DNA of 64,000 bases from Thermodesulfobacteriota bacterium (GTDB lineage Bacteria; Desulfobacterota; BSN033; UBA1163): positions 1-64,000 of the forward strand of contig JASEHH010000005.1 of assembly GCA_030017685.1 (NCBI GenBank). Reading direction: 5' to 3'. Of this stretch, positions 3,860-63,767 are shown one piece after another (within the stretch, counting starts at the first letter, position 1; every line of letters starts with the position of its first letter). Position numbers and translations under genes: made by a program. Below the pieces are notes generated by a model. The model was not told the DNA's origin, searched no databases, and worked only from the letters and a program-made list of their open reading frames with translations.

Positions 3860-3888
3860 TTGACTTGAACGGGGAGGAAACTTATAAT
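3860..3888 (+). promoter_or_regulatory. Sigma70-type promoter: TTGACT - 17 nt - TATAAT
   Basis: Sequence ttgacttgaacggggaggaaacttataat about 70 bp upstream of the HlyD-family gene. Confidence 0.7.
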
Positions 3889-3956
3889 GAATTCTGCAAT
3901 CATCATTAAAGAGAATATTTCCTTCCACGGGAGAATGGTTTTCAAAGAGGGGTCTA

Positions 3957-4961: not shown

Positions 4962-5130
4962 TCGCAGCTCATGTACAGAGAAGATTATTGTATCCATAAA
5001 TTCCAAATCCCGAACTTCAAATTCCAAACAATCTCCAAATCCAAGTTTCGAATGACCCAAACGATTTATGAGTTTTTGAAAATTTGAATTTATTTGGGAT
5101 TTGGCGCTTGGAGTTTGGTGCTTATCTGAT

Positions 5131-6057: not shown

Positions 6058-6139
6058 GAATTATGAATTGAGAATTAAGAGTTTTGTTCTTAAATTCATA
6101 ATTCATAACTCATAACTCATAACTCTGAACTCATAACTC

Positions 6140-17312: not shown

Positions 17313-17325
17313 AGGGCAGAATTAT

Positions 17326-20465: not shown

Positions 20466-20533
20466 ATTCCAATGACCAATATCCAATATCCAAAACTGAT
20501 TTATACACATCGACATTAGTCACAGCAAGGGGC

Positions 20534-20594
20534 GTCATTCCTGCGAAAGCAGGAATCCATTTTTGGACTGGATTCCCGTTTACACGGGAATGAC
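20534..20594. repeat. REP-like inverted repeat, family R copy 3, preceded by a phrase-F arm (about 20437-20500)
   Basis: GTCATTCCTGCGAAAGCAGGAATCCA ... TGGATTCCCGTTTACACGGGAATGAC. Confidence 0.88.
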
Positions 20595-20619
20595 ATGATT
20601 GATCGATAAGGAGGAATAG

Positions 20620-21783: not shown

Positions 21784-21889
21784 GTGACTAAAGTTGAAAG
21801 TGCCTAAAGTGACTAAAGTTGGAAGTGAATAAAGTTTTAAAACTCACTTTAGACACTTTAGCTCACTTTAGTTCACTTTAGTCACTTAT
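21781..21889. repeat. Phrase-type hairpin built of AAGTGnnTAAAG units and their complement
   Basis: taagtgactaaagttgaaagtgcctaaagtgactaaagttggaagtgaataaagttttaa / aactcactttagacactttagctcactttagttcactttagtcactta. Confidence 0.88.
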
Positions 21890-21921
21890 ACTTTTTGACC
21901 CAATTTGAGAGATGGGGATTG

Positions 21922-38947: not shown

Positions 38948-39997
38948 TTAGACTCGCTCTTTCTGTATTTTATCCAGCATTGCTTCGGCTTCGGCTATTG
39001 TACGGTCAATTACTTCTTCTACACTGGGAACGTCTTTAATGCCGCCAACATTCTGGCCGGCAAAAAGTATGCCCTCACTGACATCGCCCTGACTAATGGC
39101 CATCAGATGGCGCCTGTTACCAACCGCCTGGCGGGCCAGTACCCACAGCGGTTGTCCCTCTTCCTGTCCCATCATCTGGAAGCTCATGACAATAAATTTC
39201 CCGTACGAGAGCTTCATAAAGTCTTTTACTTCCTTGGCGCCTTTGAAAGCCTCCACCATGGGGAAACCGCTCCTCATCATCTTTTCGGCCGCTTTCGTTT
39301 TCAGTACCCTGCCCAGCATACCGTCAAATACGTTGCTGTACAGTGTATCCTGCTCTGATGCCTCAATGACCAGTTGCTTGTAGTTTTCATGTACCATGCT
39401 TTCCTTGGTAACGGTGAACCGTGTACCCATGGAAATACCATCTGCACCCAATGCCAATGCAGCGGCAAGACCCCTACCGTTGTAGAAACCGCCGGCTGCG
39501 ATTAGGGGAACCGTTACCTGGCCGGCCACTACGGGGATCAGCACAAGCGAAGTCGCTACATCACCATGTGCGGCCGCTTCGTGGCCGGTTACGACCAGCG
39601 CATCGCAACCGAGTTGCTGCGCTTTTGCAGCATGCCTGGCTATCGCTATGGTACCTACTACCTTTCCCCCATATGCATGTACCTGGTCCACAAACCAGGG
39701 CTTGCCCAGTGAGTAGTTTATTACTGGGACTTTCTCATCGATGGCAGCCTGGATATTTTCCTTGGCGTTGGGACCAATTAATATCTGGTTGACGCCAAAA
39801 GGTTTATCAGTAAGCTTCCGGATTTCCCTGATTAATTTGAGCGTGTCTTCGGGACCGCAATGCGCAATTGCCAGGATGCCGAGGCCGCCGGCATTACACA
39901 CCGTGGAAACCAGTTTGGGATCTGTAATCCAGTTCATTCCTGCCAGCATTATCGGATGTTTAATTCCGAATAACTCCGTCATACGTGTTTTGAACAT
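38948..39997 (-). CDS. Nitronate monooxygenase / 2-nitropropane dioxygenase family flavoprotein
   Basis: MLAGMNWITDPKLVSTVCNAGGLGILA, LVVTGHEAAAHGDVATSLVLIPVV, PLIAAGGFYNGRGLAAALALGADGISMGTRF. Confidence 0.9.
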   Translation of the reverse strand: MFKTRMTELFGIKHPIMLAGMNWITDPKLVSTVCNAGGLGILAIAHCGPEDTLKLIREIRKLTDKPFGVNQILIGPNAKENIQAAIDEKVPVINYSLGKPWFVDQVHAYGGKVVGTIAIARHAAKAQQLGCDALVVTGHEAAAHGDVATSLVLIPVVAGQVTVPLIAAGGFYNGRGLAAALALGADGISMGTRFTVTKESMVHENYKQLVIEASEQDTLYSNVFDGMLGRVLKTKAAEKMMRSGFPMVEAFKGAKEVKDFMKLSYGKFIVMSFQMMGQEEGQPLWVLARQAVGNRRHLMAISQGDVSEGILFAGQNVGGIKDVPSVEEVIDRTIAEAEAMLDKIQKERV

Positions 39998-40060: not shown

Positions 40061-41872
40061 CTAATCCCTGAGAAAATACCGGTCCGGATCGAACACCCGC
40101 AGGGTAGCCAGGTCTCTGTCATCGGGAACAGGAAATTTTGTCGGATCATCGATGACCCTCAAATCCCATCCGCATTGGTCCAGGATCTCCCGGATTGCCA
40201 TATCTCTTCCTTTGGGCAATTGATCTTCAAAATAGGAGGTGAGAGTGAACTCTCGGTCGTCGCCCAGTTTTTCAAACACGCCGAGGGGGGAAACAAGGGT
40301 CCTGGCTGCTGGACCTGGACTTGTTATGAAAGGGAGTTTTTCGACGAAACGTTTCCTGGACTGAGGCATGATCACCACCACTTCCCTGGCGGCGGACATC
40401 ACATCGTTGGCGCCTCCGGAGCCTGTAATTAGCGTCTTCTTTTCAGTAAAGGTAGTGTTCAGGTTTCCAAATTTGTCCACCTGGGCGGCGCTCAGCGTCC
40501 CAAGGCACGCCGTTCGCCGGTTCGGCATCATAATCCCGAGCATGGTGAGAATACTGCCCAATTCAATGCATGTAGGAATATTTGACAGGTTAAAGAGAAA
40601 CGGCTCGCCCGGCCTGGGATCGAACCCGAAAAAGCCCAGTTCCGACACCAGTTCCGCCTCCGCCCCTTCTTCTTTAAGGCCGTATATTGCCACCCAGGCG
40701 GCCAAACTCGCCAGGCCTGCACCGGCGAGAATCAACCTACACGGGCCTTGCCGTATTTTGTTCCTGATGATTTCCGCACCGGCCAGCACTGCCCTCTCTA
40801 AGGGAGAGGGGATAAGGGATCTTGCGCTGATATCAAGGATTTTATCGTTCAGGTCATAGAACCATTCGTTTTGATGAGAACGGCCCTTCAAAAGATGCAC
40901 CCTTTTGCTTCCCAGCCTCGCAAAGTAGTCTTTGCGATCTTTACAACCCAGAATCCATTCCTTGATCCAGACATCCAGTGCCCCTGGATCCTTTGCTGCT
41001 TTTCTAAGCTCGATATAAAATGGGATATCCTCGCAATAGCTGTCTACCCCAGAAAGGCCCTGGCTGTTCAATCCGCTGGGATGCGCACCCATGGGCATTT
41101 CGGATACGGTGCTTACAAAGCTCCCGGGAAGTCTCACCAGATGAGAGTTTTGGCGTATAAAATCCGTGGAGACTATCTTTTCTACGGTTACTATTGCCCC
41201 CTTCCTGCTCCCAAAAATACCGTAAACGTCCTCTCCCCTGGGGGGCATAAAAATGGTATTTCCGAATTTATCGGCGGCATGTCCATGTACTAAGGTGATA
41301 TCGGGATTAAGTGCCCGAACCGCTGCGAGTCCCGGTACTTCTCCGAAGGGATCGTCTATAACCCCGCAGTCCTTCTCGTTGGCAATTGCCATGTCACTTC
41401 CCACAAGGGATCGCGTAGGTAAAAATCCGATGCCCATGGCGCCTGCAAGAAGCCTTAGGGTAAAGGTGAGAAAGCTCCAGTTCTCAAATGAGACCCGATC
41501 CTCACTTAAGATTCGATTATAAACCGGGTTGGGCCCCATTGTAGGATAGGCCTCGCCCACAAATGCAGTGATGGCCTTCTTAATCATCCCGGCGTGGAAT
41601 AGCGTCATTATCGGTCCGTGAAGCGTGCCGGCCACAATGGTGAAGTTCGGTCGCCGATTCCAAAACTGCCTGTACAGTTCGTAAATAGCGGCATGGGAAC
41701 GATAGTGCAGGCCTAAAACGTGAATACTCATTCCCTCCTCGATATTCTGCCGGATGGCCTCGCCTAAAGGCACGAGTTTTGACTTGCCTTCCTCAGGGGG
41801 CAATGAAAAACGTGCCTCGATAATGTCTTGAAAAAATTGATATATTCCTGTCTCAGAGGAAATCATCTCCAC
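40061..41872 (-). CDS. Fused two-domain (alpha+beta) CoA-transferase, glutaconate-type
   Basis: 603 aa; GctA-like half (FVGEAYPTMGPNPVYNRI) and GctB-like half (ELVSELGFFGFDPRPGEPFLFNL; ITGSGGANDVMSAAREVVVIMP). Confidence 0.75.
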   Translation of the reverse strand: MEMISSETGIYQFFQDIIEARFSLPPEEGKSKLVPLGEAIRQNIEEGMSIHVLGLHYRSHAAIYELYRQFWNRRPNFTIVAGTLHGPIMTLFHAGMIKKAITAFVGEAYPTMGPNPVYNRILSEDRVSFENWSFLTFTLRLLAGAMGIGFLPTRSLVGSDMAIANEKDCGVIDDPFGEVPGLAAVRALNPDITLVHGHAADKFGNTIFMPPRGEDVYGIFGSRKGAIVTVEKIVSTDFIRQNSHLVRLPGSFVSTVSEMPMGAHPSGLNSQGLSGVDSYCEDIPFYIELRKAAKDPGALDVWIKEWILGCKDRKDYFARLGSKRVHLLKGRSHQNEWFYDLNDKILDISARSLIPSPLERAVLAGAEIIRNKIRQGPCRLILAGAGLASLAAWVAIYGLKEEGAEAELVSELGFFGFDPRPGEPFLFNLSNIPTCIELGSILTMLGIMMPNRRTACLGTLSAAQVDKFGNLNTTFTEKKTLITGSGGANDVMSAAREVVVIMPQSRKRFVEKLPFITSPGPAARTLVSPLGVFEKLGDDREFTLTSYFEDQLPKGRDMAIREILDQCGWDLRVIDDPTKFPVPDDRDLATLRVFDPDRYFLRD

Positions 41873-49200: not shown

Positions 49201-50253
49201 TCACTCCATGCTGACAACGATACGAACCGGATTACCCACTTTCTTCTCAAGATCCGAAACCCCCTGATTTACTTCATTCAAGGGAATGACCGAACTAACC
49301 GATTCACTGAGATCCAATTTCCCCGAGGCCGCAATGGCCATGAGTCTTTCAAGGTCGCCGATATCGCTTCCAAAGGAGCCGATTAATGCCAAATCGTTGT
49401 ACACGAAAAAAAATGGAGAAATTATGTTGATTCGTTCCGGTCCGATGCCAACGGTCACGGCCCTGCCTCCTCTGCGCAGCGATCTCACGGCCTGGTCAAT
49501 AGCCGCGTTCACCCCTACGAATTCGAAGGCCACATCCACACCGTATCCGCGGTTGGCTGACATCACCTCCTTGTACGGTTTCTCGATACCGGCATTGACC
49601 GTGATGTCCGCACCTACCCTGAGGGCCCTTTCGAGGGCATAATCGGATGTGTCTACGGCAATAATTCTTGCCGCCCCTGCCAATCTGCAAAACTGGATGG
49701 CATTCATTCCCAGTCCGCCGCACCCGAAGATTGCAACAGTCTCACCCGGTCTCACCTGACCTCTTTTCGTCACTGCGTGAAAAGGGGTTGCCCCGGCATC
49801 GGTCATAATTGCCGCCTCCCTGAAGGAGACATTGACCGGTATCCTCACCAGATTCTTCGCTGGTATTACGATGTAATCCGCAAATGCCCCATCACGGTGC
49901 ATACCCAGGACTCTGGCATTGATGCATATCCCGTCATGCCCCTCCCGGCACGGGGGACACGCCCCGCAAGTAACCTGTGGATAAATGGCCACACGATCCC
50001 CCTTATTCCAGCCCCGGACCCCGTCGCCCAGATCACTGATGACGCCCGAGGGTTCGTGTCCCAGAGTGATGGGGGTATATGCAGTGGCCACCGTCCCGTC
50101 CAATGCAGTATGCACGTCGGTCCCACAGATTCCACAGGCCTTCATCTTGACAAGCACCTCTCCCGGACCGGGACACGGGATATCGATCTCCTCAATTAGC
50201 AGGGGTGTCTTCACCTTGTGCAGTCTTGCTGCCATCATCTTCTTTTCGTTCAT
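49201..50253 (-). CDS. Zinc-dependent alcohol dehydrogenase family protein
   Basis: CGICGTDVHTALDG, GHEPSGVI, CGACPPCREGHDGICINARVLG, IFGCGGLGMNAIQFCRLAGA. Confidence 0.93.
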   Translation of the reverse strand: MNEKKMMAARLHKVKTPLLIEEIDIPCPGPGEVLVKMKACGICGTDVHTALDGTVATAYTPITLGHEPSGVISDLGDGVRGWNKGDRVAIYPQVTCGACPPCREGHDGICINARVLGMHRDGAFADYIVIPAKNLVRIPVNVSFREAAIMTDAGATPFHAVTKRGQVRPGETVAIFGCGGLGMNAIQFCRLAGAARIIAVDTSDYALERALRVGADITVNAGIEKPYKEVMSANRGYGVDVAFEFVGVNAAIDQAVRSLRRGGRAVTVGIGPERINIISPFFFVYNDLALIGSFGSDIGDLERLMAIAASGKLDLSESVSSVIPLNEVNQGVSDLEKKVGNPVRIVVSME

Positions 50254-50267
50254 GCTTTCCTCCCTTT

Positions 50268-51410
50268 TTAGAGCCCGATGTTTCTGGCTATGATGTTCCT
50301 GTGTATCTGGGAAGTCCCCTCGCCGATCTCCAGGAGCTTGCAGTCCCGGTAAAACCTCGAAACCGGATACTCGTCCATAAAGCCGTACCCTCCATGGATT
50401 TGAACTGCTTGTGCACAGATATTCGAAGCGATCTCTGTGGCAAAAAGCTTGGCCATGGAGGACTCCTTGATGCAGGGGGCCTTATTAGACGCCAGCCACG
50501 CGGCCTGATACGTCAACAGTTTTGCCGCCTCAATCTGAGTGGCCATATCAGCTAACATCCATTGAATGCCCTGAAATTTTCCAATGGGTTGTCCGAACTG
50601 GTATCGGGTTTTCGCATAATCAAGGGCTGCATCGTATGCTGCCCGGGCCATGCCCACTGCAAAGGCGGCAGCCACAATGCGCCCCTCGGTCAATGTCCCC
50701 ATGGCCGCTATGAAACCGGTGTTCTCTTTCCCTAACATATTTGAAGCCGGAACACTGCACTCGTCGAAGACCAGCTCTGCTGCCTCCGATGCCTTCATTC
50801 CCATCTTCTTCAACTTTTTTGATACGGAGAACCCTGGCGTATTCTTGTCCACAATGAAAAGGCTGATTCCCTTCATTCCGAGAGAGGGATCGGTGACCGC
50901 AGTGACGACGACGAAATCCGCAAAAGTCCCGTTGGTGATAAACATCTTCGTCCCATTGATTATGAAAGCATCCCCCTCTCTTTTCGCCCTGGTCGTCATG
51001 GAACCAGGATCCGATCCTGCCCCGGGCTCGGCAAATCCCCAGGCGCCGACCATATCACCCCGTATTCCCGGTATGAGATATTTCCTTTTCTGTTCGCTGC
51101 TTCCAAAGAACAATATGGCCGACATGGCGAGATAAAGATGAACATAAATTCCCAGGTAGATCCCTGGTGATACATAGCCAAGTTCCTCCGACATGATAAC
51201 GGAAAACATGGTGTCCCCCCCGATACCCCCGAATTCCTCCGGAAATCGGGCGCCCAAGTAACCCAGTTCTCCAATCTTCCTGAAAATGAACTGTGGGTAC
51301 TCTGCTCTTTCCTCGTACTCGTCAACGAGGGAAACTATCTCCTTTTTGGCAAATCTTCGCAGTGCATCGCGGAAAGCTTCTTGCTCATCCGTCAGGGAAA
51401 GATCGATCAT
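50268..51410 (-). CDS. Acyl-CoA dehydrogenase family protein
   Basis: GAWGFAEPGAGSDPGSM, GTKMFITNG, YRDCKLLEIGEGTSQIHRNIIAR. ATG at 51410. Confidence 0.94.
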   Translation of the reverse strand: MIDLSLTDEQEAFRDALRRFAKKEIVSLVDEYEERAEYPQFIFRKIGELGYLGARFPEEFGGIGGDTMFSVIMSEELGYVSPGIYLGIYVHLYLAMSAILFFGSSEQKRKYLIPGIRGDMVGAWGFAEPGAGSDPGSMTTRAKREGDAFIINGTKMFITNGTFADFVVVTAVTDPSLGMKGISLFIVDKNTPGFSVSKKLKKMGMKASEAAELVFDECSVPASNMLGKENTGFIAAMGTLTEGRIVAAAFAVGMARAAYDAALDYAKTRYQFGQPIGKFQGIQWMLADMATQIEAAKLLTYQAAWLASNKAPCIKESSMAKLFATEIASNICAQAVQIHGGYGFMDEYPVSRFYRDCKLLEIGEGTSQIHRNIIARNIGL

Positions 51411-51421
51411 GATTGTTTCTC

Positions 51422-52210
51422 CTATTTGCCTTGAAATAAAGGTTTTCTTTTTTCCTTCAATGCCTTGATCCCTTCCCTGGCATCGGCAGACTGGATACAC
51501 AGCGTCTGGGCATAGCACTCAAAATCAAGCTCCGTGGCCAGGTCCTTGTCCAGGCTCCCTGCCAGTGCTCTTTTCGTCATTTTTATGGCAAGGGTGGGAC
51601 CGTTTAGGATCCTGTTCACGAAGCGGGCCACCTCATCATCAAGGCTTTCGTGAGGGACGACTCTTGTGAGCATACCCAAGCGATATGCTTCGGGAGCTTC
51701 CACCACCTCCCCCAGCAAAAGCATTTCAGCGGCCCTTGTGGGGCCCACCAGTCTTGGAATCAGGTATGTTGCTCCCGCATCCGCACCGGCAAGTCCAACC
51801 CGCACAAAAAGCAAGCCAAGCTTTGCCGTCTCCACGGCGATCTTGAAATCGCAGGCGAGAGCCAACATTGCACCACCGCCATAGGCGTCTCCGTTGACCC
51901 TTGAAATGACGGGAATGTGAAGAGTCCGTATCCCTTCGATACAGTCGAGAAATACCTTGACCGCCCTTTCAGCAAGGATGGGATCAGCATTAACCCTCAG
52001 AACCTCCTCCATATCTGCACCGGCACAAAATGCCTTCCCTTCTCCTGTCAGGATCAGCACCTTGAGTGTTTCATTCTGGCGTATAATCCTGAGCGCGTCT
52101 CTTATGTCCACTCCCAATTGGGTGGTCATGGCGTTAAGAACAGCAGGGCGATTCATTGTAATCGTAGCGGTGGCTCCGTCGATAATCAGATTTATGGTTT
52201 CATAGTCCAT
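51422..52210 (-). CDS. Enoyl-CoA hydratase/isomerase (crotonase) family protein
   Basis: ATITMNRPAVLNAMTTQLG, FCAGADMEEV, GDAYGGGAMLALACDFKIAVETAKLGLLFVRVGLAGADAGATYLIPRLVG. Confidence 0.93.
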   Translation of the reverse strand: MDYETINLIIDGATATITMNRPAVLNAMTTQLGVDIRDALRIIRQNETLKVLILTGEGKAFCAGADMEEVLRVNADPILAERAVKVFLDCIEGIRTLHIPVISRVNGDAYGGGAMLALACDFKIAVETAKLGLLFVRVGLAGADAGATYLIPRLVGPTRAAEMLLLGEVVEAPEAYRLGMLTRVVPHESLDDEVARFVNRILNGPTLAIKMTKRALAGSLDKDLATELDFECYAQTLCIQSADAREGIKALKEKRKPLFQGK

Positions 52211-52312: not shown

Positions 52313-53197
52313 CTACAATCTATCTACCTGAGTAAGTATCAGCTTTTTTTTCAAACCCAATATCTCACGCGCTTCGTCAGGCGTGGCGATCGGCCTGCCG
52401 ATCTCCCGGGCGATCCGATCTGTTTTCTCAACAAATTGAGCGTTACTCTCTGCCATTACTCCCCGAGAGATATAGAGGTTGTCCTCCATCCCCACCCTGA
52501 CGTGCCCCCCCAGCAACATCCCCATAGTAACCATGGGGAACTGGTGAATACCGATCCCTATGACCTGCCAGGTGGACCCTTCAGGCAAATTTTCACTCAG
52601 GTAGAGAAGATGCTTCGGGGTTGGAGTATTGATCTGGCCTGGAATCCCCATGACAAAGCTGAAATGCATCGGCTTAACTATTGCACCGATCTTTTCAAAC
52701 AGCAGGGCATTGTTGATCATGCCCGGGTCATAGATCTCAATCTCCGGTTTAGTTCCGGCTTCCAACATGGTCCTGGCGATCAGCTCCAGGTCCGAATAAG
52801 ACTGGCTTAGCGTGAAATCGGAAAGCCATTTTCCATTCTCGAAATCATACCGCCCTGTCATGGTAGTGCCGATATTGAACGAGGCCAGCTCGGGTTTCAA
52901 GGCGGGTATCATACCTATTCTCTCCTTTAGAGAGATTTTGGCTGCTCCGCCCGTTGAAAGGCAAATCACAAGATCGGTTTTGGCCATTATCCCGTCTGAT
53001 ATCACCTTGAAAACCCCGGGGTCTGCTGTGGGCTTTCCTTCTCTGTCCCTGGCATGGATATGAACGATGGCCGCGCCCGCCTCCCGGCACTCAATGGCCT
53101 GTCGGATGATCTCTTCGGGCTGTTCCGGAAGGTTAGGATTGGCCTCTTTCCCGTGTTGAGCCCCTGTCAAGGCAACAGTGATGATTAGTTTTTCCAT
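52313..53197 (-). CDS. Beta-keto acid cleavage enzyme (BKACE, DUF849)
   Basis: IITVALTGAQHGKEANPNLPEQPEEIIRQAIECREAGAAIVHIHARD, GLEDNLY-like VRVGMEDNLYISRGVMAESNAQFV. ATG at 53197. Confidence 0.92.
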   Translation of the reverse strand: MEKLIITVALTGAQHGKEANPNLPEQPEEIIRQAIECREAGAAIVHIHARDREGKPTADPGVFKVISDGIMAKTDLVICLSTGGAAKISLKERIGMIPALKPELASFNIGTTMTGRYDFENGKWLSDFTLSQSYSDLELIARTMLEAGTKPEIEIYDPGMINNALLFEKIGAIVKPMHFSFVMGIPGQINTPTPKHLLYLSENLPEGSTWQVIGIGIHQFPMVTMGMLLGGHVRVGMEDNLYISRGVMAESNAQFVEKTDRIAREIGRPIATPDEAREILGLKKKLILTQVDRL

Positions 53198-53198
53198 C

Positions 53199-53978
53199 CT
53201 ATTCTCCTGTAAAATGGGCCTTTCTTTTTTCGATAAAGGCGCCCATTCCTTCTTTCTGGTCTCTGGTTGCCCAGTTGAGCCCAACGGTGTTGATGGAAAA
53301 ATCTATGGCCGTCTCAAGGTCCGTGGTCATCCACTTGTTGATGATATCCTTCTGCGTCTCTAATGCCCTGGGACTTTTTGAGGCAATCTTCTCGGCCCAC
53401 TTTAAGGTCTCTTTTTCAAGCTCCTCCCGTGGAACAACACTGTTAAGGAGATTAAACTTTTCTGCCCGTTTTACATCCCAAAGTTCACCCATAAAGCATA
53501 GTTCCTTTGTCCCGAAGATTCCGATTGCGGCAGGTAGGATAGCCGCCTCCACGATAGCCGGGATCCCCACGTTGATGTTTGGTAATCCGAACAGGGCATC
53601 TTCCGAGGCAATGAGAATGTCGCAGGAAAGGGCAAGCTCCAGCCCCGCTCCAAGGCAGCGGCCATGGATTGACGCGATGATCGGTTTTCCTATAAACCGG
53701 CATGTGCCGAAGGTCTGGTGGAGAAGCCGGCCTACCTCCCTGACTCCCCAGGAATCCATATCCTTGACATAGGCCACGTCTATTCCGGAACTGAAACCTT
53801 TAAGGCAGGCTGAATTCAACACTGCGACAACCACCTCTTTGTCTCTGGCCAATTCCCGGACCGCGTCCGTGATTTCCTCCAGCATCTCACCGTTCAATGC
53901 ATTCAGGACTTCAGGCCTGTTCAGGGTGATTGTTCCAAGTCTACCCTCTTTCTTATATTTGATTGTTTTATAGGTCAT
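53199..53978 (-). CDS. Enoyl-CoA hydratase/isomerase (crotonase) family protein
   Basis: GTITLNRPEVLNALNGEMLEEI, GFSSGIDVAYV, GRCLGAGLELALSCDILIASEDALFGLPNINVGIPAIVEAA. ATG at 53978. Confidence 0.92.
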   Translation of the reverse strand: MTYKTIKYKKEGRLGTITLNRPEVLNALNGEMLEEITDAVRELARDKEVVVAVLNSACLKGFSSGIDVAYVKDMDSWGVREVGRLLHQTFGTCRFIGKPIIASIHGRCLGAGLELALSCDILIASEDALFGLPNINVGIPAIVEAAILPAAIGIFGTKELCFMGELWDVKRAEKFNLLNSVVPREELEKETLKWAEKIASKSPRALETQKDIINKWMTTDLETAIDFSINTVGLNWATRDQKEGMGAFIEKRKAHFTGE

Positions 53979-54003
53979 TTTCTTGTCTCTCCCCGGTGGC
54001 AAT

Positions 54004-55149
54004 TTACAGGCCGCTCTGTTTTGCAATTATCTCCCGCATCACCTCGTTTGTGCCCCCCCCGATGGTGAAGGCAGCCACGTCCCGGTAAATCCGGCATACC
54101 GGGTACTCCTCCATATATCCGTACCCACCATGCATCTGAAGAACCTCATTGGCCACCTCTTTGACCAGGTTAGCAGTAAAAAGCTTGGCCATAGAGATTT
54201 CCTTTTCTGCCCTGATCCCACTGTTTGCAGCATCTACGGCCAGATAAGTGAGTTGCCGCGCAGCCATGATTTGGGTGTACAGATCCGCAAGCTTATGCCT
54301 CCAGACTTGATATTCCAGAACTGGTCGTCCAGAAATCTCCCTGCTCTCGCCGTATGCCACAGCCTCTTCCATGAGGGCCTCCATGGCGCCCAGTGCGAAT
54401 CCACACAAAACGATCCTCTCACCCTGGAAATGATGCATGATATACTTGAAGCCCGCGTTCTCCTCGCCAATGATATTTGACGCTGGAACAACGCAATCTT
54501 CGAAAGAGAGTTCTGTTGTGGCCGAACAGTGGACGCCCATCTTTTTGAGTTTCCGGCCGACTGAAAACCCGGGTGTATTGGTGGGGATTACGATAAGACT
54601 TACCCCTTTGGTACCCTGACCTCCGGTCCGCACTGCCAGGAGGACATAATCGGCTATGGACCCATTGGTAATGAAGGTCTTGGCGCCATTAATGATATAG
54701 GAGTCCCCCTCGCGGCGGGCTGTGGTCCTGATAGAGCCTACGTCCGAACCTGTGGAAGGCTCGGTAACTCCAAGGCATCCAAGGAGTTCCCCTTTGATGG
54801 CCGGGACGAGGTATTGCTGCTTCAACTCCTCGCTTCCCTCTTCATGGATGGCGGCGGTGCACATTTCGCACTGCATGAGAATGGAAACAGCAGCCCCCAT
54901 ATACTTGGATTTGGCAAGTTCCTCGCAGAGGATCAGAGTGTACCAAAAATCAAGGCCGCTCCCACCATACTTCTCATCGTATCGTGTACCCAGAATCCCC
55001 AAATCGCCGAGTTTCAGGAAAACTTCCCTCGGGACCTCACCCATTTCCTCCCAGTGTTCGGCGTTGGGTTTGATCTCCTTCTTCACAAAGCCACTCACCA
55101 TCTTTCGGAACATCTCGTGCTCATCGGTGAACGGATTCATAAAACTCAT
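54004..55149 (-). CDS. Acyl-CoA dehydrogenase family protein
   Basis: GCLGVTEPSTGSDVGSIRTTA, GAKTFITNGSIADY, RIYRDVAAFTIGGGTNEVMREIIAKQ. ATG at 55149. Confidence 0.94.
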   Translation of the reverse strand: MSFMNPFTDEHEMFRKMVSGFVKKEIKPNAEHWEEMGEVPREVFLKLGDLGILGTRYDEKYGGSGLDFWYTLILCEELAKSKYMGAAVSILMQCEMCTAAIHEEGSEELKQQYLVPAIKGELLGCLGVTEPSTGSDVGSIRTTARREGDSYIINGAKTFITNGSIADYVLLAVRTGGQGTKGVSLIVIPTNTPGFSVGRKLKKMGVHCSATTELSFEDCVVPASNIIGEENAGFKYIMHHFQGERIVLCGFALGAMEALMEEAVAYGESREISGRPVLEYQVWRHKLADLYTQIMAARQLTYLAVDAANSGIRAEKEISMAKLFTANLVKEVANEVLQMHGGYGYMEEYPVCRIYRDVAAFTIGGGTNEVMREIIAKQSGL

Positions 55150-55174
55150 TTTACATGCTCCTTTCGTCGTAGGT

Positions 55175-56026
55175 TCAATTGTCAAGCTTGAAGGCTCGTA
55201 TTGCATTATCCCGCAGCAATTTCTTTTTGGCTTCGGGTTTTAGGTCTAATTCCTCGACCTCATCAACGCAGCGTTTAAAGGAAAGGAGAGGGTAGTCCGT
55301 CGCCCACAATACCTTATCCTGCCCCCAGGAATTGCAGTACGCCTTGAAGGAGTCAGGCCAAAGCTTCGGAGTGCGAGCTGAGGTCTCAACGTAGACATTC
55401 GGGAACTTCCACGCCAGAGTCATCATCTCCTCGTGCCATGGTTGTCCCAGATGAGCTCCTACAATCGTGAGATCGGGGAAACCAAGGGCAATTTCGTCTA
55501 AATAGATAGGACGGCCGCATTCGGAGGGAAGGAGGGGTCCCGTGTGACCTACCTGGAAGACAACAGCAATGTCCAGCTCGCAGCATTTGGCCAGGAGTGG
55601 GTAGTAGAGTTTGTCATTAGGCGGAAGCCCAACTCTCCCGTTCCCATAAGCATAAGGTTCAAGCCTCAGGGCACGGCAGTTGTACTCCTTAACACATCTC
55701 TCCACTTCATAGTAGGCCGCCATCCCGTGCCTCGGGTCAACGGTACAGGCCATGGCAAACTTGTCAGGATGTTTCAGTGCCAATTCCCCGGCTTCTGTAT
55801 TGCTGCAGAGTTCCTTACCCTCGAATACGAACGCGGAAAGGAGGATCTTGACTACCCCTGCCTCTTCCATCTCTTGGAGCAATTGTTCGAGTGTCTTGCC
55901 TTTCCTGAACACCTCATAAACGCCGTAGCGCTTGAAGATATGCCAGAATGAATCCGGCCAGAGATTTGACCTTTCAGGTGTGATCAAGGTAGCCCATGCG
56001 TCAATTGCACCTACTTTTTCGCTCAT
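55175..56026 (-). CDS. Amidohydrolase_2 (ACMSD-like TIM-barrel) family protein
   Basis: EKVGAIDAWATLI, ALRLEPYAYGNG, DLTIVGAHLGQPWHEEMMTLAWKFPNVYVETSA, KVLWATDYPLL. ATG at 56026. Confidence 0.85.
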   Translation of the reverse strand: MSEKVGAIDAWATLITPERSNLWPDSFWHIFKRYGVYEVFRKGKTLEQLLQEMEEAGVVKILLSAFVFEGKELCSNTEAGELALKHPDKFAMACTVDPRHGMAAYYEVERCVKEYNCRALRLEPYAYGNGRVGLPPNDKLYYPLLAKCCELDIAVVFQVGHTGPLLPSECGRPIYLDEIALGFPDLTIVGAHLGQPWHEEMMTLAWKFPNVYVETSARTPKLWPDSFKAYCNSWGQDKVLWATDYPLLSFKRCVDEVEELDLKPEAKKKLLRDNAIRAFKLDN

Positions 56027-56055
56027 TTCATTCCTCCTTACTCTCATTCTCAGAT

Positions 56056-56878: not shown

Positions 56879-57328
56879 TCAAACAGGACGAAAGCATTCA
56901 ATGTCCAAGATATGACCCTTTCTTTCTTCCGAAAAGATCGCCCGGACCCTCATGCCATGATCAAGTTTAGTGACCTCAGTCTCGCTCAAAAAATGGACTA
57001 TTGACGTGTCTGCACCATCGAGTTTGATTATCCCATAAGCTAAAGGGGCCTCTTTTGGATGATGGTTTTCCTTGTGGTATACAACCGTGAAGGTCACCAG
57101 AGTCCCTTCCGGTCCCACCTCAACCCATTCATCCGTCTCCACAAAGCACTCCTTACAGAACAACTGCGCAGGCACAATCACCCTTTGGCACAGGGGGCAC
57201 CTCTTCCCCATGATCCTTTGGCGATCTCTCAGTTCGACAAAAAACCGGCTGGCTGTTTTGCCTGCCGCATAGCTGAAATGCATATCGACTTTACCCTGAA
57301 GGACCATCCTTTCCACATGATCGCTCAT
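56879..57328 (-). CDS. Zn-ribbon/OB-fold (DUF35) protein
   Basis: GKRCPLCQRVIVPAQLFCKECFVETDEWVEVGPEGTLVTFTVV. ATG at 57328. Confidence 0.92.
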   Translation of the reverse strand: MSDHVERMVLQGKVDMHFSYAAGKTASRFFVELRDRQRIMGKRCPLCQRVIVPAQLFCKECFVETDEWVEVGPEGTLVTFTVVYHKENHHPKEAPLAYGIIKLDGADTSIVHFLSETEVTKLDHGMRVRAIFSEERKGHILDIECFRPV

Positions 57329-57347
57329 CTCTCTCCTCCTCTTACTT

Positions 57348-57824
57348 TCATTCCTCAATGCCCTTGAAGTAGAGGATGTCCCCGATATTCCCCTCTCTCT
57401 TCTCCTTCAGCACCGCCTCCACTCGCATTCCGATATACAGTTTGCCCGGATCCCCCTCTTCCAGGATGTGATTGATGGCGGAGTATGCCCCATCTAGCTG
57501 AATCAGGCCTGCTCCATAGGGTATGGGCCGCGGTTTTCCCGTGGTCAAATCAATGAAAGAAAAACAAATGGAGGTATAGGCAACCACCGTGCCTTTGGGA
57601 CCAACTTGCACCCACTCTTCCGTCCTGGCAAAGCACTCCCCGCAAACAGGACGCGGAGGCACCAGGACTCGCCTGCATTCAGGGCACCTTACCCCCATGA
57701 TTCTTCCGGTCTCCTTCATCTCCTTAAAAAACCTTTCATAGTGTGCCCCGGCAGGAAATCGGTAATGAAGTTTCATATGTACAGGAACTCGAAGAAGCTC
57801 TTCCTGCTGTACCTCTCTTCTCAT
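57348..57824 (-). CDS. Zn-ribbon/OB-fold (DUF35) protein
   Basis: GVRCPECRRVLVPPRPVCGECFARTEEWVQVGPKGTVVAYTSI. Confidence 0.92.
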   Translation of the reverse strand: MRREVQQEELLRVPVHMKLHYRFPAGAHYERFFKEMKETGRIMGVRCPECRRVLVPPRPVCGECFARTEEWVQVGPKGTVVAYTSICFSFIDLTTGKPRPIPYGAGLIQLDGAYSAINHILEEGDPGKLYIGMRVEAVLKEKREGNIGDILYFKGIEE

Positions 57825-57834
57825 GGTGCACCTC

Positions 57835-58995
57835 TTAATACGGCTTACTGGACAATATCAGGACATCGCTCCAGCAATAGACCCCGTAGCCGGTAACCAG
57901 TGCCAGGTTAACATCCGGGACCTGTCGCTTGCCGCCCCTTCCATGAATCTGGAGAGCGCCTTCGGCCACACGGATTGTTCCGGATGCCCCTACGGGATTA
58001 GTTGAGATGACCCCCCCGGAAGGATTAACAGGGAGCTCACCATCCATCTGTGTGACCCCACCATCGATCAGCATTCCACCTTCACCGTCTTTACAGAACC
58101 CCAGCGCCTCATACCAAGCGATCTCGGCGTAGGTCAAAGGATCATAAATTTCAGCCACGTCGAACTCCTTCAGGGGTTCTTTAATGCCTACGATTTCATA
58201 GGCCGCTTTAGCGGCTTCCCTTAGGCTTCTCATGGTGCTGAGACGATTTTTTACTTCACCCAAATAGATGTGATCATGCCGGGTGACTGCCGCCCTCACC
58301 CAGGCGGGCCTGGGGCACCTCTTTTTTGCTATTTCTTCAGAGGCAAAAATAATAGCGCAGGCCCCGTCCGATTGGGGGCACATCTCTAAACGATGAACAG
58401 GGTAGGCCAAAATAGGAGATTCAAGCACCTCTTTAACGGTAAGGTCAGGCATCTGGAGGTGGGCGTGCGGATTATTGCAGGCATTGCGACGAGCCTTGAC
58501 GGCCACCTTGGCCGATTGCTCCTCGGTAACACCCCGATCCGCCATGTATGCCGATACGGAGAGAGCAAAATTGCCGATGGCCGCTGCAGCGATATGGCGA
58601 TCCCAAAAGGGATCTGTCAGGGCCATGCCTCCTGAGGCATCGCCTTCGGAATGCTTCTCAAAGCCCACGACCATAACCCTATCAAACAGCCCGGAGGCCA
58701 CATGATAGTAACCCGAAATGGCCCCTGATGTCCCTGAAGTGCCTCCCGTGGAGATTTTAAATGCGTGCTTCATGAAAGCGCCTGCCCCTTCTCCACACCA
58801 CATGTCAGGAAGCGCTCTCCCTTCAAAAAGCTCCATGTTGGCCAGCACTACCGCGTCAATGTCCTTTATGGTCATTTCCGCATCCTTTAGCGCCGCTGTG
58901 GCAGCTTCATAGACCAGTTCCATCTCATTGACATCTTCCCGGCTGCTACAATGGTTGGTCTGCCCGGTTCCTATAATGGCTGCCCTCTTTCCCAC
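57835..58995 (-). CDS. Thiolase-fold protein (lipid-transfer/SCPx-like), lacking the nucleophilic Cys
   Basis: MGKRAAIIGTGQTNH..., VNPSGGVISTNPVGASGTIRVAEGALQIHG; the expected C(A/S)TGS region reads ISTGGTSGTSG. Confidence 0.88.
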   Translation of the reverse strand: MGKRAAIIGTGQTNHCSSREDVNEMELVYEAATAALKDAEMTIKDIDAVVLANMELFEGRALPDMWCGEGAGAFMKHAFKISTGGTSGTSGAISGYYHVASGLFDRVMVVGFEKHSEGDASGGMALTDPFWDRHIAAAAIGNFALSVSAYMADRGVTEEQSAKVAVKARRNACNNPHAHLQMPDLTVKEVLESPILAYPVHRLEMCPQSDGACAIIFASEEIAKKRCPRPAWVRAAVTRHDHIYLGEVKNRLSTMRSLREAAKAAYEIVGIKEPLKEFDVAEIYDPLTYAEIAWYEALGFCKDGEGGMLIDGGVTQMDGELPVNPSGGVISTNPVGASGTIRVAEGALQIHGRGGKRQVPDVNLALVTGYGVYCWSDVLILSSKPY

Positions 58996-59012
58996 TTAGG
59001 TCTACCCCCTTT

Positions 59013-60155
59013 TCAATTTCCCACGATCATCACATACTGCCCTTGCCCACAGCATCCGGTTGTTCCATGGGCTAAGGCCTTCCTGGCCCCCCTAACCTGC
59101 CGGGCGCCCGCTTCTCCGCGAACCTGCAAGACCGCCTCCACCAAGCGAGTCAATCCAGCCACTGTAACGGGATTACCCGCTATCATTCCTCCTGATGGAT
59201 TAACGGGAAGCGTCCCTCCCAAGGATGTCATTCCTTTCTGGAGGATTTTTGCTCCCTCACCCCTGCCGCAGAAGCCCAATAGCTCCGTCCAGAGAAGCTC
59301 CTGATAGGAGAAGGCGGCAGAGACCTCAGCCACATCCAGCTCCTCTAAAGGATCGGAAATCCCCGCCATACCGTAGGCCTTTTTCGAAGCCCTGATCAGG
59401 GCATCCCCTCCTGCCAAGTCACGGTCGCCCAGGTAATGGGAATCCAGGCAACTTCCTGCCCCGAGTATCCATATCGGCTTTTTTGAAAGGGCCTTCGCCT
59501 TCTCTCGAGATGCCAGAACAACAGCGCATGCTCCGTCTGAAATTGGAGCGACATCCATTTCCTTTATAGGATAGGCCAACATTGGGGAATCCATCACTTC
59601 ATCTACAGTGGCCTCCCTTGCCACCTGGGCATAGGGGTTATTTTGAGCGTCTCTGAGATTTTTGATTACGACCCGGGCACAGTCTTTTTGCGAAATTCCG
59701 AATTGCTTCATATAATGATTAGCCTGAAGCGCTCCTGCTGAAAGATAGTCCAGCCCCAAAGTCTGCTGATAAATAGGGTCGAAGACCCAATTACTAATCT
59801 CGTAATAAGCTCCCATGGAACCTCTGCACTGTGAAACCACCAAGGTGATCTCCGAAACACCTGCGAGAATGGTCATAATACCCTGAAATGCTGCCCCCAA
59901 ACCATCGCCTGCGACCCTGCTTTCCGGTTTCATGATCGCTCCGACGACATCTGTCAACATCTGATTTGAGGCGGTCCTCCCGTCCCAGAGATCCACACTG
60001 GATGTAACGATGCTGTCCAAATCATCTCTCTTTACGCCCGCATCTGCCATAGCCTCCAGGACAACGTTGAAAACCGTTTCAATAATAGCCTCGTAACCTT
60101 TATCTGACTCAAATTTTGTCTGACTCGCACCTATAACGGCAACCTGCGGATTCAT
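59013..60155 (-). CDS. Thiolase-fold protein (lipid-transfer/SCPx-like), lacking the nucleophilic Cys
   Basis: VAVIGASQTKF, VNPSGGMIAGNPVTVAGLTRLVEAVLQVRG; the nucleophile region reads RVAGDGLGAAFQG. Confidence 0.88.
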   Translation of the reverse strand: MNPQVAVIGASQTKFESDKGYEAIIETVFNVVLEAMADAGVKRDDLDSIVTSSVDLWDGRTASNQMLTDVVGAIMKPESRVAGDGLGAAFQGIMTILAGVSEITLVVSQCRGSMGAYYEISNWVFDPIYQQTLGLDYLSAGALQANHYMKQFGISQKDCARVVIKNLRDAQNNPYAQVAREATVDEVMDSPMLAYPIKEMDVAPISDGACAVVLASREKAKALSKKPIWILGAGSCLDSHYLGDRDLAGGDALIRASKKAYGMAGISDPLEELDVAEVSAAFSYQELLWTELLGFCGRGEGAKILQKGMTSLGGTLPVNPSGGMIAGNPVTVAGLTRLVEAVLQVRGEAGARQVRGARKALAHGTTGCCGQGQYVMIVGN

Positions 60156-60281: not shown

Positions 60282-60845
60282 TTATAGAATCTTAATGGGT
60301 GGTGAATTTACCCACAAAATTTCCGATCCCTCAGGATCAACTCCATAGATCGCATGCGGGACAGTTGACCTGAAGTATATGGTATCCCCTTCTTTCAGGA
60401 TATGGACCTCGTCTCCGAGCTCAACCTTAATCTCCCCTTTCAAAACCAGGCCGAATTCGTCCCCCTCATGGGTATATCTTTCTGTCGGGACTTCGAAGCG
60501 TTCTATCCTCGCTTGAACGACCTCGAACCTCTTGCTCCTCAGGGAAGGGTTAAGCAGCTCGAAATAAATTTTGTTGTCATCGCTGGTCCAGACCTTTCGG
60601 TCTTCTTTATGACAGACAATGGTAGCCTTTTGTTTTTCGTTCTCCCCTAAGATATAGCCGGCATCCATACCCAAAAAATTTGACAATTTAATAAGCGTCG
60701 AAAGTGATGGAGAAGTGTTGTTGTTTTCCACCTTGGAGATGAGACTCACTGAAAGACCTGTCTCTCTGGCTACATCCTTAAGTTTTAGCCCTTTTTTCAG
60801 CCTAATCTCTCTTATTTTAGGACCTATATCTATTTTGGCTTTCAT
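60282..60845 (-). CDS. XRE-family transcriptional regulator with C-terminal cupin domain
   Basis: LKLKDVARETGLSVSLISKVENNNTSPSLSTLIKLSNFLG; cupin TPTERYTHEGDEFGLVLKGEIKVELGDEVHILKEGDTIYFRSTVPHAIYG-like region. Confidence 0.92.
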   Translation of the reverse strand: MKAKIDIGPKIREIRLKKGLKLKDVARETGLSVSLISKVENNNTSPSLSTLIKLSNFLGMDAGYILGENEKQKATIVCHKEDRKVWTSDDNKIYFELLNPSLRSKRFEVVQARIERFEVPTERYTHEGDEFGLVLKGEIKVELGDEVHILKEGDTIYFRSTVPHAIYGVDPEGSEILWVNSPPIKIL

Positions 60846-61379: not shown

Positions 61380-62546
61380 TTATTGTTTGAAATATTTTAT
61401 AATGGCGTTGACGAGGTTTTTGGCTATTTTTTCCTGGAATCCACTTTGGTTGAGGAGGCGTTCATCGTCTTTGTTGGTGATGAAGGCCACTTCAACCAGG
61501 ACCGAAGGAATATCCGGAGCCCTTAATACGATGAAATTGGCCTGCCGGTAGGAGGGATATTTTAGCGGATGGATTTCCTTCATCTCGTCAAGAGTCAATT
61601 CGGCGAATCGGAAGCTTTCCTTCATCGAGTTGTTCTGCATGAGGTCGAGTAGAATCTGGTTTAAATTGGGGTCTTTGCTGAGGGAGGCCGGCCTCAGGAA
61701 AGCCCCTCCAAGGATGTTGGACATATTCTCCTTATCGGCCAGGAGTTTGGCGGCTTGATCCGAAGCGCCGGAAAGGGAGAGGCAGTAGACAGAGGACCCT
61801 CTGGCCTGGGGGTTAAAACTTCCATCGGCATGCAGACTGATGAAAAGATCTGCGCTATATTCCCTCGCTATCCTTACCCTCTGCTCGAGGGGAATAAAAT
61901 AATCCCCTTTCCGTGTCAGGAAAGCTTTTACTTCTTTCTGTTGGTTGAATAGATGAATCGCCTTTTCCCCCACCTTCAATACGATATCCTTCTCCAGTGT
62001 TTTGCGGGGCCCCACGGCTCCGGGGTCTTCTCCGCCATGGCCGGGGTCGATGACGACGATCTTTGTGCCCTTCGATCTGACCTCCTTCTGTTTCTGCCTT
62101 TCCTCCTGATCCTTTTTCTCCTGCCCCACATCGATGAGGTCGATGACGAGGCGATGGGTCTTGCCAAGGTCGGGCTTCAGCGTGAAGATATTCGCCTGGA
62201 GGGGAGTCTTCTGATAGAGCACCAGTCGGGCCTTTCCCTTTCCGAGATCAGTCAGGCTGATTTTGAGAAGATATTTATCCTTAACCTCCAATTCTTTCTT
62301 TTTCGGCAGAGAGGTGATGCCGGTTAATTCAACCTGGCATAGCGGAGGGTTTTCCTGGGAGGAACTCTCATATTGAACCGATTCCGTAAGGTCTATGACC
62401 ACACGCGTGTGATCAGGGGCAGACCAGAACCGAATATCGGTGATGGCCGCCCCGAAAACAGAAAGAGGAAGGTGAAGAATCAGGATGACAGAAATGAGAA
62501 AGGGTTTGATTTTTGATGAAAAAGGTCCCATTTCCTCACCGATCAT
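61380..62546 (-). CDS. N-acetylmuramoyl-L-alanine amidase with N-terminal AMIN domain (AmiC-like)
   Basis: IVVIDPGHGGEDPGAVGPRKTLEKDIVLKV, SLHADGSFNPQARGSSVYCLS, FIVLRAPDIPSVLVEVAFITNKDDERLL. Confidence 0.94.
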   Translation of the reverse strand: MIGEEMGPFSSKIKPFLISVILILHLPLSVFGAAITDIRFWSAPDHTRVVIDLTESVQYESSSQENPPLCQVELTGITSLPKKKELEVKDKYLLKISLTDLGKGKARLVLYQKTPLQANIFTLKPDLGKTHRLVIDLIDVGQEKKDQEERQKQKEVRSKGTKIVVIDPGHGGEDPGAVGPRKTLEKDIVLKVGEKAIHLFNQQKEVKAFLTRKGDYFIPLEQRVRIAREYSADLFISLHADGSFNPQARGSSVYCLSLSGASDQAAKLLADKENMSNILGGAFLRPASLSKDPNLNQILLDLMQNNSMKESFRFAELTLDEMKEIHPLKYPSYRQANFIVLRAPDIPSVLVEVAFITNKDDERLLNQSGFQEKIAKNLVNAIIKYFKQ

Positions 62547-62564: not shown

Positions 62565-63767
62565 TCAACCAATCTTAAAGACCATGGCGGCTCCGGTATC
62601 CCCTGCCGCGCACCCGGCCCACAGGCCATAGCCACCGCCCAGCAGGACGATCTCCTCGATCAATTCGGCGATAAGCCTTCCTGCAGTCGGTCCCTGTGGA
62701 TGGCCATAGATCATAGAATTTCCATAATTGTTCATCCAGTAGACATCCATCCCCATCATTTTGGCCATATAGATGTCATTCACCACAAAGGGGCTGTGCG
62801 TCTTGACGGCCTTGAGATCTTTTACGGTTAACCCTGCGTCTCTAAGGGCCATTTCAGAAGCAGGGACAGGCGCTTCTGCCATATAACCCTTTTTCGATCT
62901 CGCAAAACCATAGGAGAGAATTTGAATCTCGGTCTTCGAGTCCTCGCTCCACTCTTTCGCCTTTTCCCGTGTGGTGACAATAAAACCGCAGTTTCCATCC
63001 GCCGGATGAGTCTGGGAGCCAAAACTGTGAACGCCCCCTGGCTCGACCGGCGCCAGTTTGGCAAGGCCTTCGGCTGAGGTAGGTGTTATCCCCTCATCTT
63101 CTTCTATGAGTTTTACCCCTTTTTTACCTACTTTAACCTCCACAGGGAACATATATCTCTTCTGAAACGCCCGGTCATTGGCCGTGGAGTCAAGATATTG
63201 CTGATATCTCTTCAAAGTGACGGTGTCACACTCCTCTTTGGTAGCCCCGATCTTTTTAGCCACATTTTCAGCGGTCTGAATCATTTTGAAACCCGCCCAC
63301 GGGTCACTGTTGAAGTTATCCATCATCCAGTTTTCCGACACAACCTCTCCGCCAGGGCCGAGCGGATTCGGCCAGATCGTATGAGGACCGTTCGAACAAC
63401 GATCGGACAACAGGGCATATCCAGCCTGGTAAGCTCCGAGTTCGATGTTCTGGGCGGCGAGATAGATGGCGGTGGCTGAAGTGGTGCATGCCTGGTTGAT
63501 CATAAGGGCCGGCACGTCCTTTGCGCCTTCGACGAGCATGGCGGCCGACCAGGTATGGCTATAAAACATGTGGTGCTGGGCAATCGTGATCCCGTAGTAG
63601 AGATAGTCGATGATAGTAGGATCCAGTTTTCTCTTTTTGAACCACCTGTTGGCGGTTGCCGCTCCAAGGGAGATGGCATTTTCATTGGCAAGGCTTCCCT
63701 GCCAGCGGCAGAACGGGGAAGAGTAGTACCCTCGAAATGGAATATAGGCTTTGTTTAATCTGGTCAT
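62565..63767 (-). CDS. Thiolase family protein (acetyl-CoA acyltransferase-like)
   Basis: MINQACTTSATAIYLAAQNIELG (nucleophilic Cys), MIYGHPQGPTAGR, GGYGLWAGCAAGDTGAAMVF. Confidence 0.88.
   Translation of the reverse strand: MTRLNKAYIPFRGYYSSPFCRWQGSLANENAISLGAATANRWFKKRKLDPTIIDYLYYGITIAQHHMFYSHTWSAAMLVEGAKDVPALMINQACTTSATAIYLAAQNIELGAYQAGYALLSDRCSNGPHTIWPNPLGPGGEVVSENWMMDNFNSDPWAGFKMIQTAENVAKKIGATKEECDTVTLKRYQQYLDSTANDRAFQKRYMFPVEVKVGKKGVKLIEEDEGITPTSAEGLAKLAPVEPGGVHSFGSQTHPADGNCGFIVTTREKAKEWSEDSKTEIQILSYGFARSKKGYMAEAPVPASEMALRDAGLTVKDLKAVKTHSPFVVNDIYMAKMMGMDVYWMNNYGNSMIYGHPQGPTAGRLIAELIEEIVLLGGGYGLWAGCAAGDTGAAMVFKIG

Follow-up and report, generated by a model that had tools for sequence, protein, structure and literature searches.

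Ltp3-Ltp4, known from Rhodococcus rhodochrous DSM 43269 and from Mycobacterium tuberculosis (Rv3522-Rv3523 with Rv3521), is known from genetics and is described as a heteromeric aldol-lyase (review PMC6678751, citing Wilbrink 2012), and its genes are listed in the order Rv3521-ltp4-ltp3 (PMC6429209). Retro-aldol cleavage by Ltp2 begins with Tyr294 as the catalytic base, and Sal, which has the YD motif too, uses the corresponding Tyr (PMC12329534). Here we describe a related locus in a 64,000-nucleotide stretch of DNA, referred to as the window, from a Thermodesulfobacteriota bacterium (assembly GCA_030017685.1, contig JASEHH010000005.1, positions 1 to 64,000). Four of its genes code for two thiolase-fold proteins, B and A, and two DUF35 proteins, DUF35a and DUF35b, and probably form a single heteromeric retro-aldolase of the Ltp3/Ltp4 type which, where a beta-keto acid cleavage enzyme (BKACE) accompanies it, would cleave a tertiary substrate to acetyl-coenzyme A (acetyl-CoA) and a beta-keto acid. 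The genes run from position 60155 down to 56879 as follows.

59013-60155, minus strand: B subunit, Ltp4-like; thiolase fold, ATG start at 60155, 380 amino acids; partner, presumed non-catalytic
57835-58995, minus strand: A subunit, Ltp3-like; thiolase fold, GTG start at 58995, 386 amino acids; presumed catalytic
57348-57824, minus strand: DUF35a; zinc ribbon and OB fold, 158 amino acids; immediately 3' of A in most loci
56879-57328, minus strand: DUF35b; zinc ribbon and OB fold, 149 amino acids; best start ATG at 57328

An upstream TTG at 57358 is a less likely start for DUF35b. Both thiolase-fold proteins match the Pfam domains Thiolase_N and Thiolase_C_1, and both small proteins match zf-ChsH2 and OB_ChsH2_C above the cut-offs and have a zinc-ribbon motif that reads C-x2-C-x10-C-x2-C, in agreement with a preliminary description of the locus that had paired the two thiolase-fold proteins with two DUF35 proteins. 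Its coordinates, frames and quoted motifs were all correct when the sequence was read again; these are ISTGGTSGTSG in A and VAGDGLGAAFQ in B at the region of the thiolase Cys, and STNPVGASG and AGNPVTVAG at that of the GHP His. The contrast it drew with a thiolase at 62565-63767 also stands, as that protein retains QACTTSA and YGHPQG and is a canonical Thiolase_N/C match in Pfam. Three orthologues with 79-94% identity, in metagenome-assembled genomes (MAGs) of Desulfobacteraceae, Deltaproteobacteria and Desulfobacterales, have identical motifs and the same four-gene order.

We compared the catalytic columns in an alignment of 63 A and 67 B proteins from Desulfobacterota genomes and public MAGs, together with relatives in the PDB (thiolases and Ltp2). 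The column of the thiolase nucleophile, a Cys at the N-terminus of the third helix of the N-domain, is Gly in 63/63 A proteins (Gly85 in the window) and Gly (57), Ser (5), Phe (3) or Ala (2) in B, where it is never Cys (Gly85 in the window). Because this column is Gly throughout A and non-Cys throughout B, the loss of the motif is real, and as judged from the alignment it is neither chance nor sequencing error. At the GHP His column all 63 A proteins have Asn (Asn333), whereas B has His in 28, Asn in 25, Val in 10, Asp in three and Ser in one, with Asn328 in window B. The earlier claim that neither residue is present thus holds for the Cys in both families and for the His in A, and for the His in window B but not in B as a whole; A and window B lack both of the residues that mark a thiolase. 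At the HDAF His column all A proteins share a Tyr (Tyr284), and B varies, with Tyr in 24, Ser in 21, Cys in seven, Asn in five and other residues in the rest (Ser279 in the window). Tyr284, Asn333, Glu282 and Gly371 are invariant in A over 63 sequences with identities down to ~36%, and Pro286 is kept in 62, such that within this alignment A has not only lost residues but has fixed new ones at the same columns. B has a conserved feature of its own, an acidic residue directly before the old Cys site in 67/67 (Asp 58, Glu 9; D84 in the window), which might, as pure speculation, reach into the active site of A. A search for a relocated Cys nucleophile found no invariant Cys among either the 63 A or the 67 B proteins.

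Tyr284 and Asn333 of A align with Tyr294 and Tyr344 of Ltp2 (6ok1). A therefore has the Tyr base of Ltp2 and Sal, in the YDxF motif, that B does not conserve, and departs from both at the catalytic acid, which is Tyr344 in Ltp2 and Cys304 in Sal (its column placed through the published YDC motif); A has Asn333 (63/63) and Pro286 (62/63). The roles that we give to individual residues of A and B are transferred by alignment, and we infer retro-aldol chemistry for A because Tyr284 stands at the column of the Ltp2/Sal base.

AlphaFold, run on single chains, predicts confident full-length thiolase folds for A and B (predicted local distance difference test, pLDDT, 92.1 and 94.2; predicted template modelling score, pTM, 0.94), and both models match SCP2-type thiolase-fold chains over their full length with Z of 44-55, as expected for members of this superfamily. 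The top structural match is the DUF35-associated thiolase of Methanothermococcus (6esq), followed by SCP2-type thiolases, BbsB, PhlC, Ltp2 and Sal; for window A the values are 54.9 for 6esq, 51.4 for BbsB, 46.4 for Ltp2 and 46.2 for Sal. This ranking fails to separate thiolases from aldolases, and function is consequently assigned from residues and context. For both DUF35a and DUF35b the PDB holds matching DUF35 chains, including those of 6esq and ChsH2, and the best match of DUF35a is a PhlB-type chain.

The two thiolase-fold genes are seldom apart. B is directly adjacent to A for 83 of 88 A genes, upstream of it in all 83, and two DUF35 genes are near A in 70 of the 88; many loci have the order DUF35b-B-A-DUF35a. 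Adjacency fails, among other cases, at contig ends, where the actinobacterial B protein is divergent and where a DUF35 gene intervenes. A and B form separate clades (support 100/99 and 98/95) that mirror each other, with a few more divergent pairs outside both, and their pairwise distances are correlated (r = 0.93, where permutations reached 0.13 at most). The correlation shows a lasting partnership rather than contact, as shared inheritance of the operon alone would suffice to produce a high value. The A clade includes actinobacterial PRK08313 proteins and the B clade PRK07937 proteins. Pairs on Streptomyces and Tsukamurella plasmids fall within the two clades, pass PRK07937 (B) and PRK08313 (A), and adjoin a single protein of 332-339 amino acids in which both DUF35 domains are fused; we named the actinobacterial pairs Ltp3/Ltp4-type from their position, length and NCBIfam model, and by order and length they fit the published listing (PMC6429209). 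The window module has the corresponding features, namely tandem A and B genes that belong to the same two clades and two DUF35 domains.

Since the A and B clades nearly always occur together and the Tyr base is conserved in A only, the data favour B, A, DUF35a and DUF35b as one heteromeric complex rather than two enzymes. The preliminary description had proposed two bipartite retro-aldolase complexes, against which the strict A:B pairing and the conservation of Tyr in A alone both speak; its broader suggestion of a C-C-cleaving thiolase-fold/DUF35 complex that is no thiolase and may be heteromeric is supported by the Tyr/Asn signature of A, the Ltp3/Ltp4-type homology and the pairing. The case for B as a second, independently active enzyme is weak.

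Further modules and looser variants were also seen. The same genome has two more A/B modules with two DUF35 genes each, one at 3374-6793 of a second contig (C270, locus L045) with a BKACE, ABC-type (ATP-binding cassette) uptake genes and a ligase alongside, and one at 2627-6071 of a third (C129, L046) that is of a divergent A/B subtype. Among ten genomes of the window genus a match at E < 1e-80 is present in this genome alone, and the patchy occurrence of the module fits a mobile catabolic island. A Rhodococcus qingshengii plasmid (L068, 9081-11679) has an A-like gene, a shortened B-like 'hypothetical protein' of 304 amino acids, one DUF35 and a MaoC pair, possibly a reduced complex, and a Natrinema gelatinilyticum plasmid (L139, 9743-14335) has a haloarchaeal thiolase-fold pair with one DUF35 and a carboxyltransferase, and an Amidohydro_2 gene farther along.

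The DUF35 proteins of relatives are fused to other enzymes in several ways. DUF35b is fused to BKACE in two loci (L060 and L063, by Pfam) and to a MaoC hydratase in others (including L111, L117 and L124), and DUF35a is fused to SCP2 or to CoA ligase-SCP2. These fusions make the DUF35 subunits look like ports at which the enzyme of the preceding step (hydratase), that of the following step (BKACE or ligase) and a lipid carrier would dock. In three loci a CoA ligase-SCP2-DUF35a fusion and a DUF35b-MaoC fusion lie side by side and adjoin the A/B pair (L111, 6251-8599 and 8617-9516; L124, 6011-8437 and 5097-5990; L117, 3351-6446 and 6473-7375), an arrangement that amounts to a near-complete activation-hydration-cleavage assembly in four proteins.

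The activity established for the BKACE family takes up a beta-keto acid together with acetyl-CoA and returns acetoacetate and an acyl-CoA. BKACE is encoded in 16 of 76 Desulfobacterota module loci (1.18 Mb), where 1.0 is expected from a uniform background at the genome-wide BKACE density of the same genomes (P = 2e-14), and in 13 of the 16 it is fused to the module or within ~0.5 kb of it. Two of the three BKACE genes of the window genome lie beside a module (the window operon and L045). The window BKACE and the fused ones retain the HxHAR and GHxRVGxEDN motifs of the family. A link between BKACE, DUF35 and thiolase-fold proteins was not found in the literature that we searched on BKACE, DUF35 and anaerobic thiolase-like systems. 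This connection is the new element of the analysis, absent from the preliminary description, and it says most about the likely substrate.

The remainder of the window operon, in which BKACE is the sixth gene below, comprises the following.

60282-60845, minus strand: XRE-cupin regulator, first gene of the run; also upstream of B in L039-L041
56056-56901, minus strand: enoyl-CoA hydratase, next after DUF35b; candidate maker of the 3-hydroxyacyl-CoA
55175-56047, minus strand: Amidohydro_2 metal hydrolase/decarboxylase, by domain match
54004-55206, minus strand: acyl-CoA dehydrogenase
53199-54026, minus strand: enoyl-CoA hydratase/isomerase family protein
52313-53284, minus strand: BKACE (PF05853), with HIHAR and GHVRVGMEDN kept; proposed downstream partner of the aldolase
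51422-52210, minus strand: enoyl-CoA hydratase family protein
50268-51518, minus strand: second acyl-CoA dehydrogenase
49201-50253, within the operon: zinc-type dehydrogenase
40061-41872: fused CoA transferase of 603 amino acids with two CoA_trans stretches, apparently both class I CoA transferase halves in one chain
38948-39997: nitronate-monooxygenase-fold protein, next after the fused CoA transferase

After the zinc-type dehydrogenase the run continues with a crotonase, a branched-chain-type ABC uptake system (its parts recognised by inspection of translations only) and a CoA ligase before the last two entries, a pair reminiscent of IpdAB/IpdC or ThnP. There are two acyl-CoA dehydrogenases and four crotonases in total, and neither a 3-hydroxyacyl-CoA dehydrogenase of HAD/SDR type nor an intact thiolase was found in the operon.

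In the reaction that we propose, a thiolase-fold A:B heterodimer would have two flanking zinc-ribbon/OB subunits, which would give the active-site cleft its shape and provide docking sites for neighbouring enzymes. A would be the catalytic subunit and B a partner without a conserved base. Tyr284 would remove a proton from the beta-hydroxyl of a 3-hydroxyacyl-CoA, and the C2-C3 bond would break to give an acetyl-CoA (or acyl-CoA) enolate, with Asn333 and the backbone NH groups around Gly371 holding it in place; no acyl-enzyme would form and the aldolase would not use free CoA. The preferred substrate would be a tertiary 3-hydroxyacyl-CoA, which is not oxidisable to a 3-ketoacyl-CoA, and in the BKACE-bearing loci it is likely to be of the 3-hydroxy-3-alkylglutaryl-CoA type, i.e. 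a 3-hydroxy-3-(carboxymethyl)acyl-CoA, whose cleavage would yield acetyl-CoA and a free beta-keto acid. The coupling is chemically fitting because these are the two substrates of BKACE, which would then convert both to acyl-CoA and acetoacetate at no cost in ATP or CoA. We put forward more tentatively, as somewhat less than an even chance, that this is a widespread Desulfobacterota metabolon in which a heteromeric retro-aldolase is joined to BKACE via DUF35, cuts tertiary 3-hydroxy-3-alkylglutaryl-CoAs, at which the beta-oxidation of branched and ring-derived acids comes to a dead end, and passes both products on, the acyl-CoA being regenerated by exchange with acetyl-CoA. If so, it would account for re-thioesterification, which the review of the Ltp3-Ltp4 pathway regards as mandatory without assigning it. 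A general link with a biotin carboxylase was considered and rejected; among the Desulfobacterota modules L125 alone has a carboxyltransferase (PF01039) nearby, as does one haloarchaeal pair (L139), and carboxylation, the route put forward for branched sterols, is therefore not general here. A carboxylase would be unnecessary if the carboxymethyl group derives from the opening of an alkyl-substituted ring, for which there is a precedent (PMC12583861).

A substrate without a beta-carboxymethyl group deserves consideration, with the retro-aldolase releasing an aldehyde or plain ketone and an acyl-CoA, and BKACE serving some other step of the pathway. Ltp2 and Sal release a ketone or an aldehyde (PMC12329534), no BKACE is within reach in 60 of the 76 module loci, and the DUF35b-MaoC fusion of L111 and L124 is an Ltp2/Sal-type arrangement. 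We nevertheless consider it unlikely, as the two DUF35b-BKACE fusions and the BKACE genes adjoining in ~10 more loci are hard to explain unless BKACE uses the product of the aldolase. It is highly improbable that the module still acts as a thiolase or an acyltransferase through a nucleophile that has moved elsewhere, for instance to Cys206 in A or the C-terminal Cys369 in B. Of the 63 A proteins 57 have Cys206, 38 of the 67 B proteins have Cys369, and the DUF35-partnered relatives BbsAB, 6esq and PhlC perform Claisen chemistry, but neither Cys is invariant, Cys206 is shared with Ltp2, an aldolase, the activating His is missing from every A, and fusions to BKACE and MaoC need no thiolase. More improbable still is a synthetic direction, either an aldol-type condensation like that of HMG-CoA synthase or a Friedel-Crafts acylation like that of PhlABC. 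The top structural match is a thiolase/HMG-CoA synthase/DUF35 complex (6esq) and DUF35a is closest to a PhlB-type chain, but the fold score does not follow chemistry in this superfamily and the operon, with its uptake system, ligase, dehydrogenases and hydratases, is a catabolic one. Both PhlC and the 6esq thiolase use a Cys, at a site where A and B have none. Just as improbable is that A and B are catalytically dead scaffold or regulatory proteins for neighbouring enzymes, since, for all that the thiolase Cys and His are lost and DUF35 domains dock other enzymes, the invariant Tyr284, Asn333, Glu282 and Gly371 of A resemble active-site conservation and Ltp3 and Ltp4 are reported to be essential for the degradation of branched side chains.

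Several observations weigh against a BKACE-coupled Ltp3/Ltp4-type retro-aldolase. Window A scores 380.6 with PRK08313 (cut-off 514) and window B 190.4 with PRK07937 (cut-off 419) in NCBIfam. Tyr is at the base column in 24/67 B proteins, so B is possibly active in some lineages, and the A-like protein of the haloarchaeal pair (L139) has Phe at this column and its chemistry may differ. Pro286 and Asn333 of A align where Ltp2 and Sal have acid or oxyanion residues, so that neither Tyr344 of Ltp2 nor Cys304 of Sal has a counterpart in A as proton donor to the enolate. BKACE is near only about one-fifth of the modules, and in the window it is four genes from DUF35b and not adjacent to it. The general clustering of catabolic genes inflates the BKACE enrichment over a uniform background, and for this reason adjacency and fusions outweigh the P value. 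The zinc-type dehydrogenase of the operon (49201-50253) could oxidise a hydroxyl.

Other features of the window lie outside these arguments. The thiolase at 62565-63767 is apparently intact (Cys and GHP present) and does not belong to the operon; an N-acetylmuramoyl-L-alanine amidase-like gene (61380-62546) separates it from the regulator at 60282-60845. A second regulator of the XRE-cupin type (11261-11809) likewise adjoins a transport or catabolic cluster. Downstream of genes for a tripartite ATP-independent periplasmic (TRAP)-type transporter, the interval 16842-23442 appears from its translations to encode a molybdenum hydroxylase of three subunits and, after it, an amidohydrolase-like product and an Fe-S protein with 4Fe-4S domains, possibly for N-heterocycle or purine catabolism.

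Beta-oxidation halts at tertiary beta-carbons, which are abundant in terpenoids, steroids, hopanoids and naphthenic acids, and few anaerobic solutions are known (ThnQS for naphthalene; LrcC, proposed, for limonene). A thiolase-fold lyase family with multiple paralogues would be a further general solution in anaerobes; B-type matches of more than 300 bits occur in ~35 of 297 sampled Desulfobacterota genomes. The fusions suggest a concrete reaction sequence of hydratase, aldolase and BKACE, which if true would be a route for branched, ring-derived acids in oxygen-free sediments. Automated annotation labels such proteins thiolases, acetyl-CoA acetyltransferases or lipid-transfer proteins, and the Tyr/Asn signature permits many proteins labelled thiolases to be read again.

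Among the closest known systems, Ltp3-Ltp4 shares with the module its tandem thiolase-fold genes, the B type before the A type, and two DUF35 domains. The actinobacterial type differs in that A and B of Desulfobacterota stay under the curated PRK08313 and PRK07937 cut-offs, that the Desulfobacterota DUF35s are separate genes or are fused to BKACE, MaoC or SCP2, and that they lie in operons of presumed anaerobes with ring and CoA catabolism and not in sterol clusters. Ltp2-ChsH2 (6ok1) shares with A the thiolase fold with DUF35, the absence of a Cys nucleophile and the Tyr base at the HDAF His column, but is homodimeric with one type of DUF35, has Tyr344 for Asn333 and His296 for Pro286, and is 25% identical. 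Sal-Shy (9myr) is also a thiolase-fold retro-aldolase with DUF35 and the YD motif; it is homodimeric, its acid is Cys304 where A has Pro, and its DUF35-MaoC fusion recurs in L111, L117 and L124. The benzoylsuccinyl-CoA thiolase BbsAB (7pxp), to which the preliminary description compared the locus, has a thiolase fold with a separate DUF35 subunit and belongs to an anaerobic pathway, so that the architecture is shared, but the chemistry is not; BbsAB is a true thiolase with one type of thiolase-fold subunit, and BbsB keeps the HDAF and GHP motifs in the sequence alignment. With thiolase residues retained, it is ruled out as a functional model.

LrcC and ThnQS are similar to the proposed module in reaction, since both are lyases, whether proposed or reported, that would act on tertiary 3-hydroxyacyl-CoAs of anaerobic pathways (PMC12583861, PMC12016498). 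In the proposed limonene route, ring cleavage gives 3-isopropenylglutaryl-CoA, which is converted to a tertiary alcohol and then cleaved (PMC12583861), and in the naphthalene thn operon, which like the window has an amidohydrolase-superfamily member and a CoA transferase, the tertiary alcohol is handled by a different lyase, ThnQS (PMC12016498). ThnQS is of an AtuA-like family, LrcC is set beside the module by description only (HMG-CoA synthase superfamily), and no BKACE coupling is described for either. The 3-keto-5-aminohexanoate cleavage enzyme of the BKACE family (PF05853, 2y7d) shares its motifs with the window and fused BKACEs, which differ in that gene order or a fusion ties them to a thiolase-fold/DUF35 complex. 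To our knowledge, the characterised BKACE members are stand-alone. On present sequence evidence the module would thus be a thiolase-fold aldolase of the kind that Ltp3/Ltp4 and Ltp2/Sal represent, in a variant that has a physical link to BKACE.

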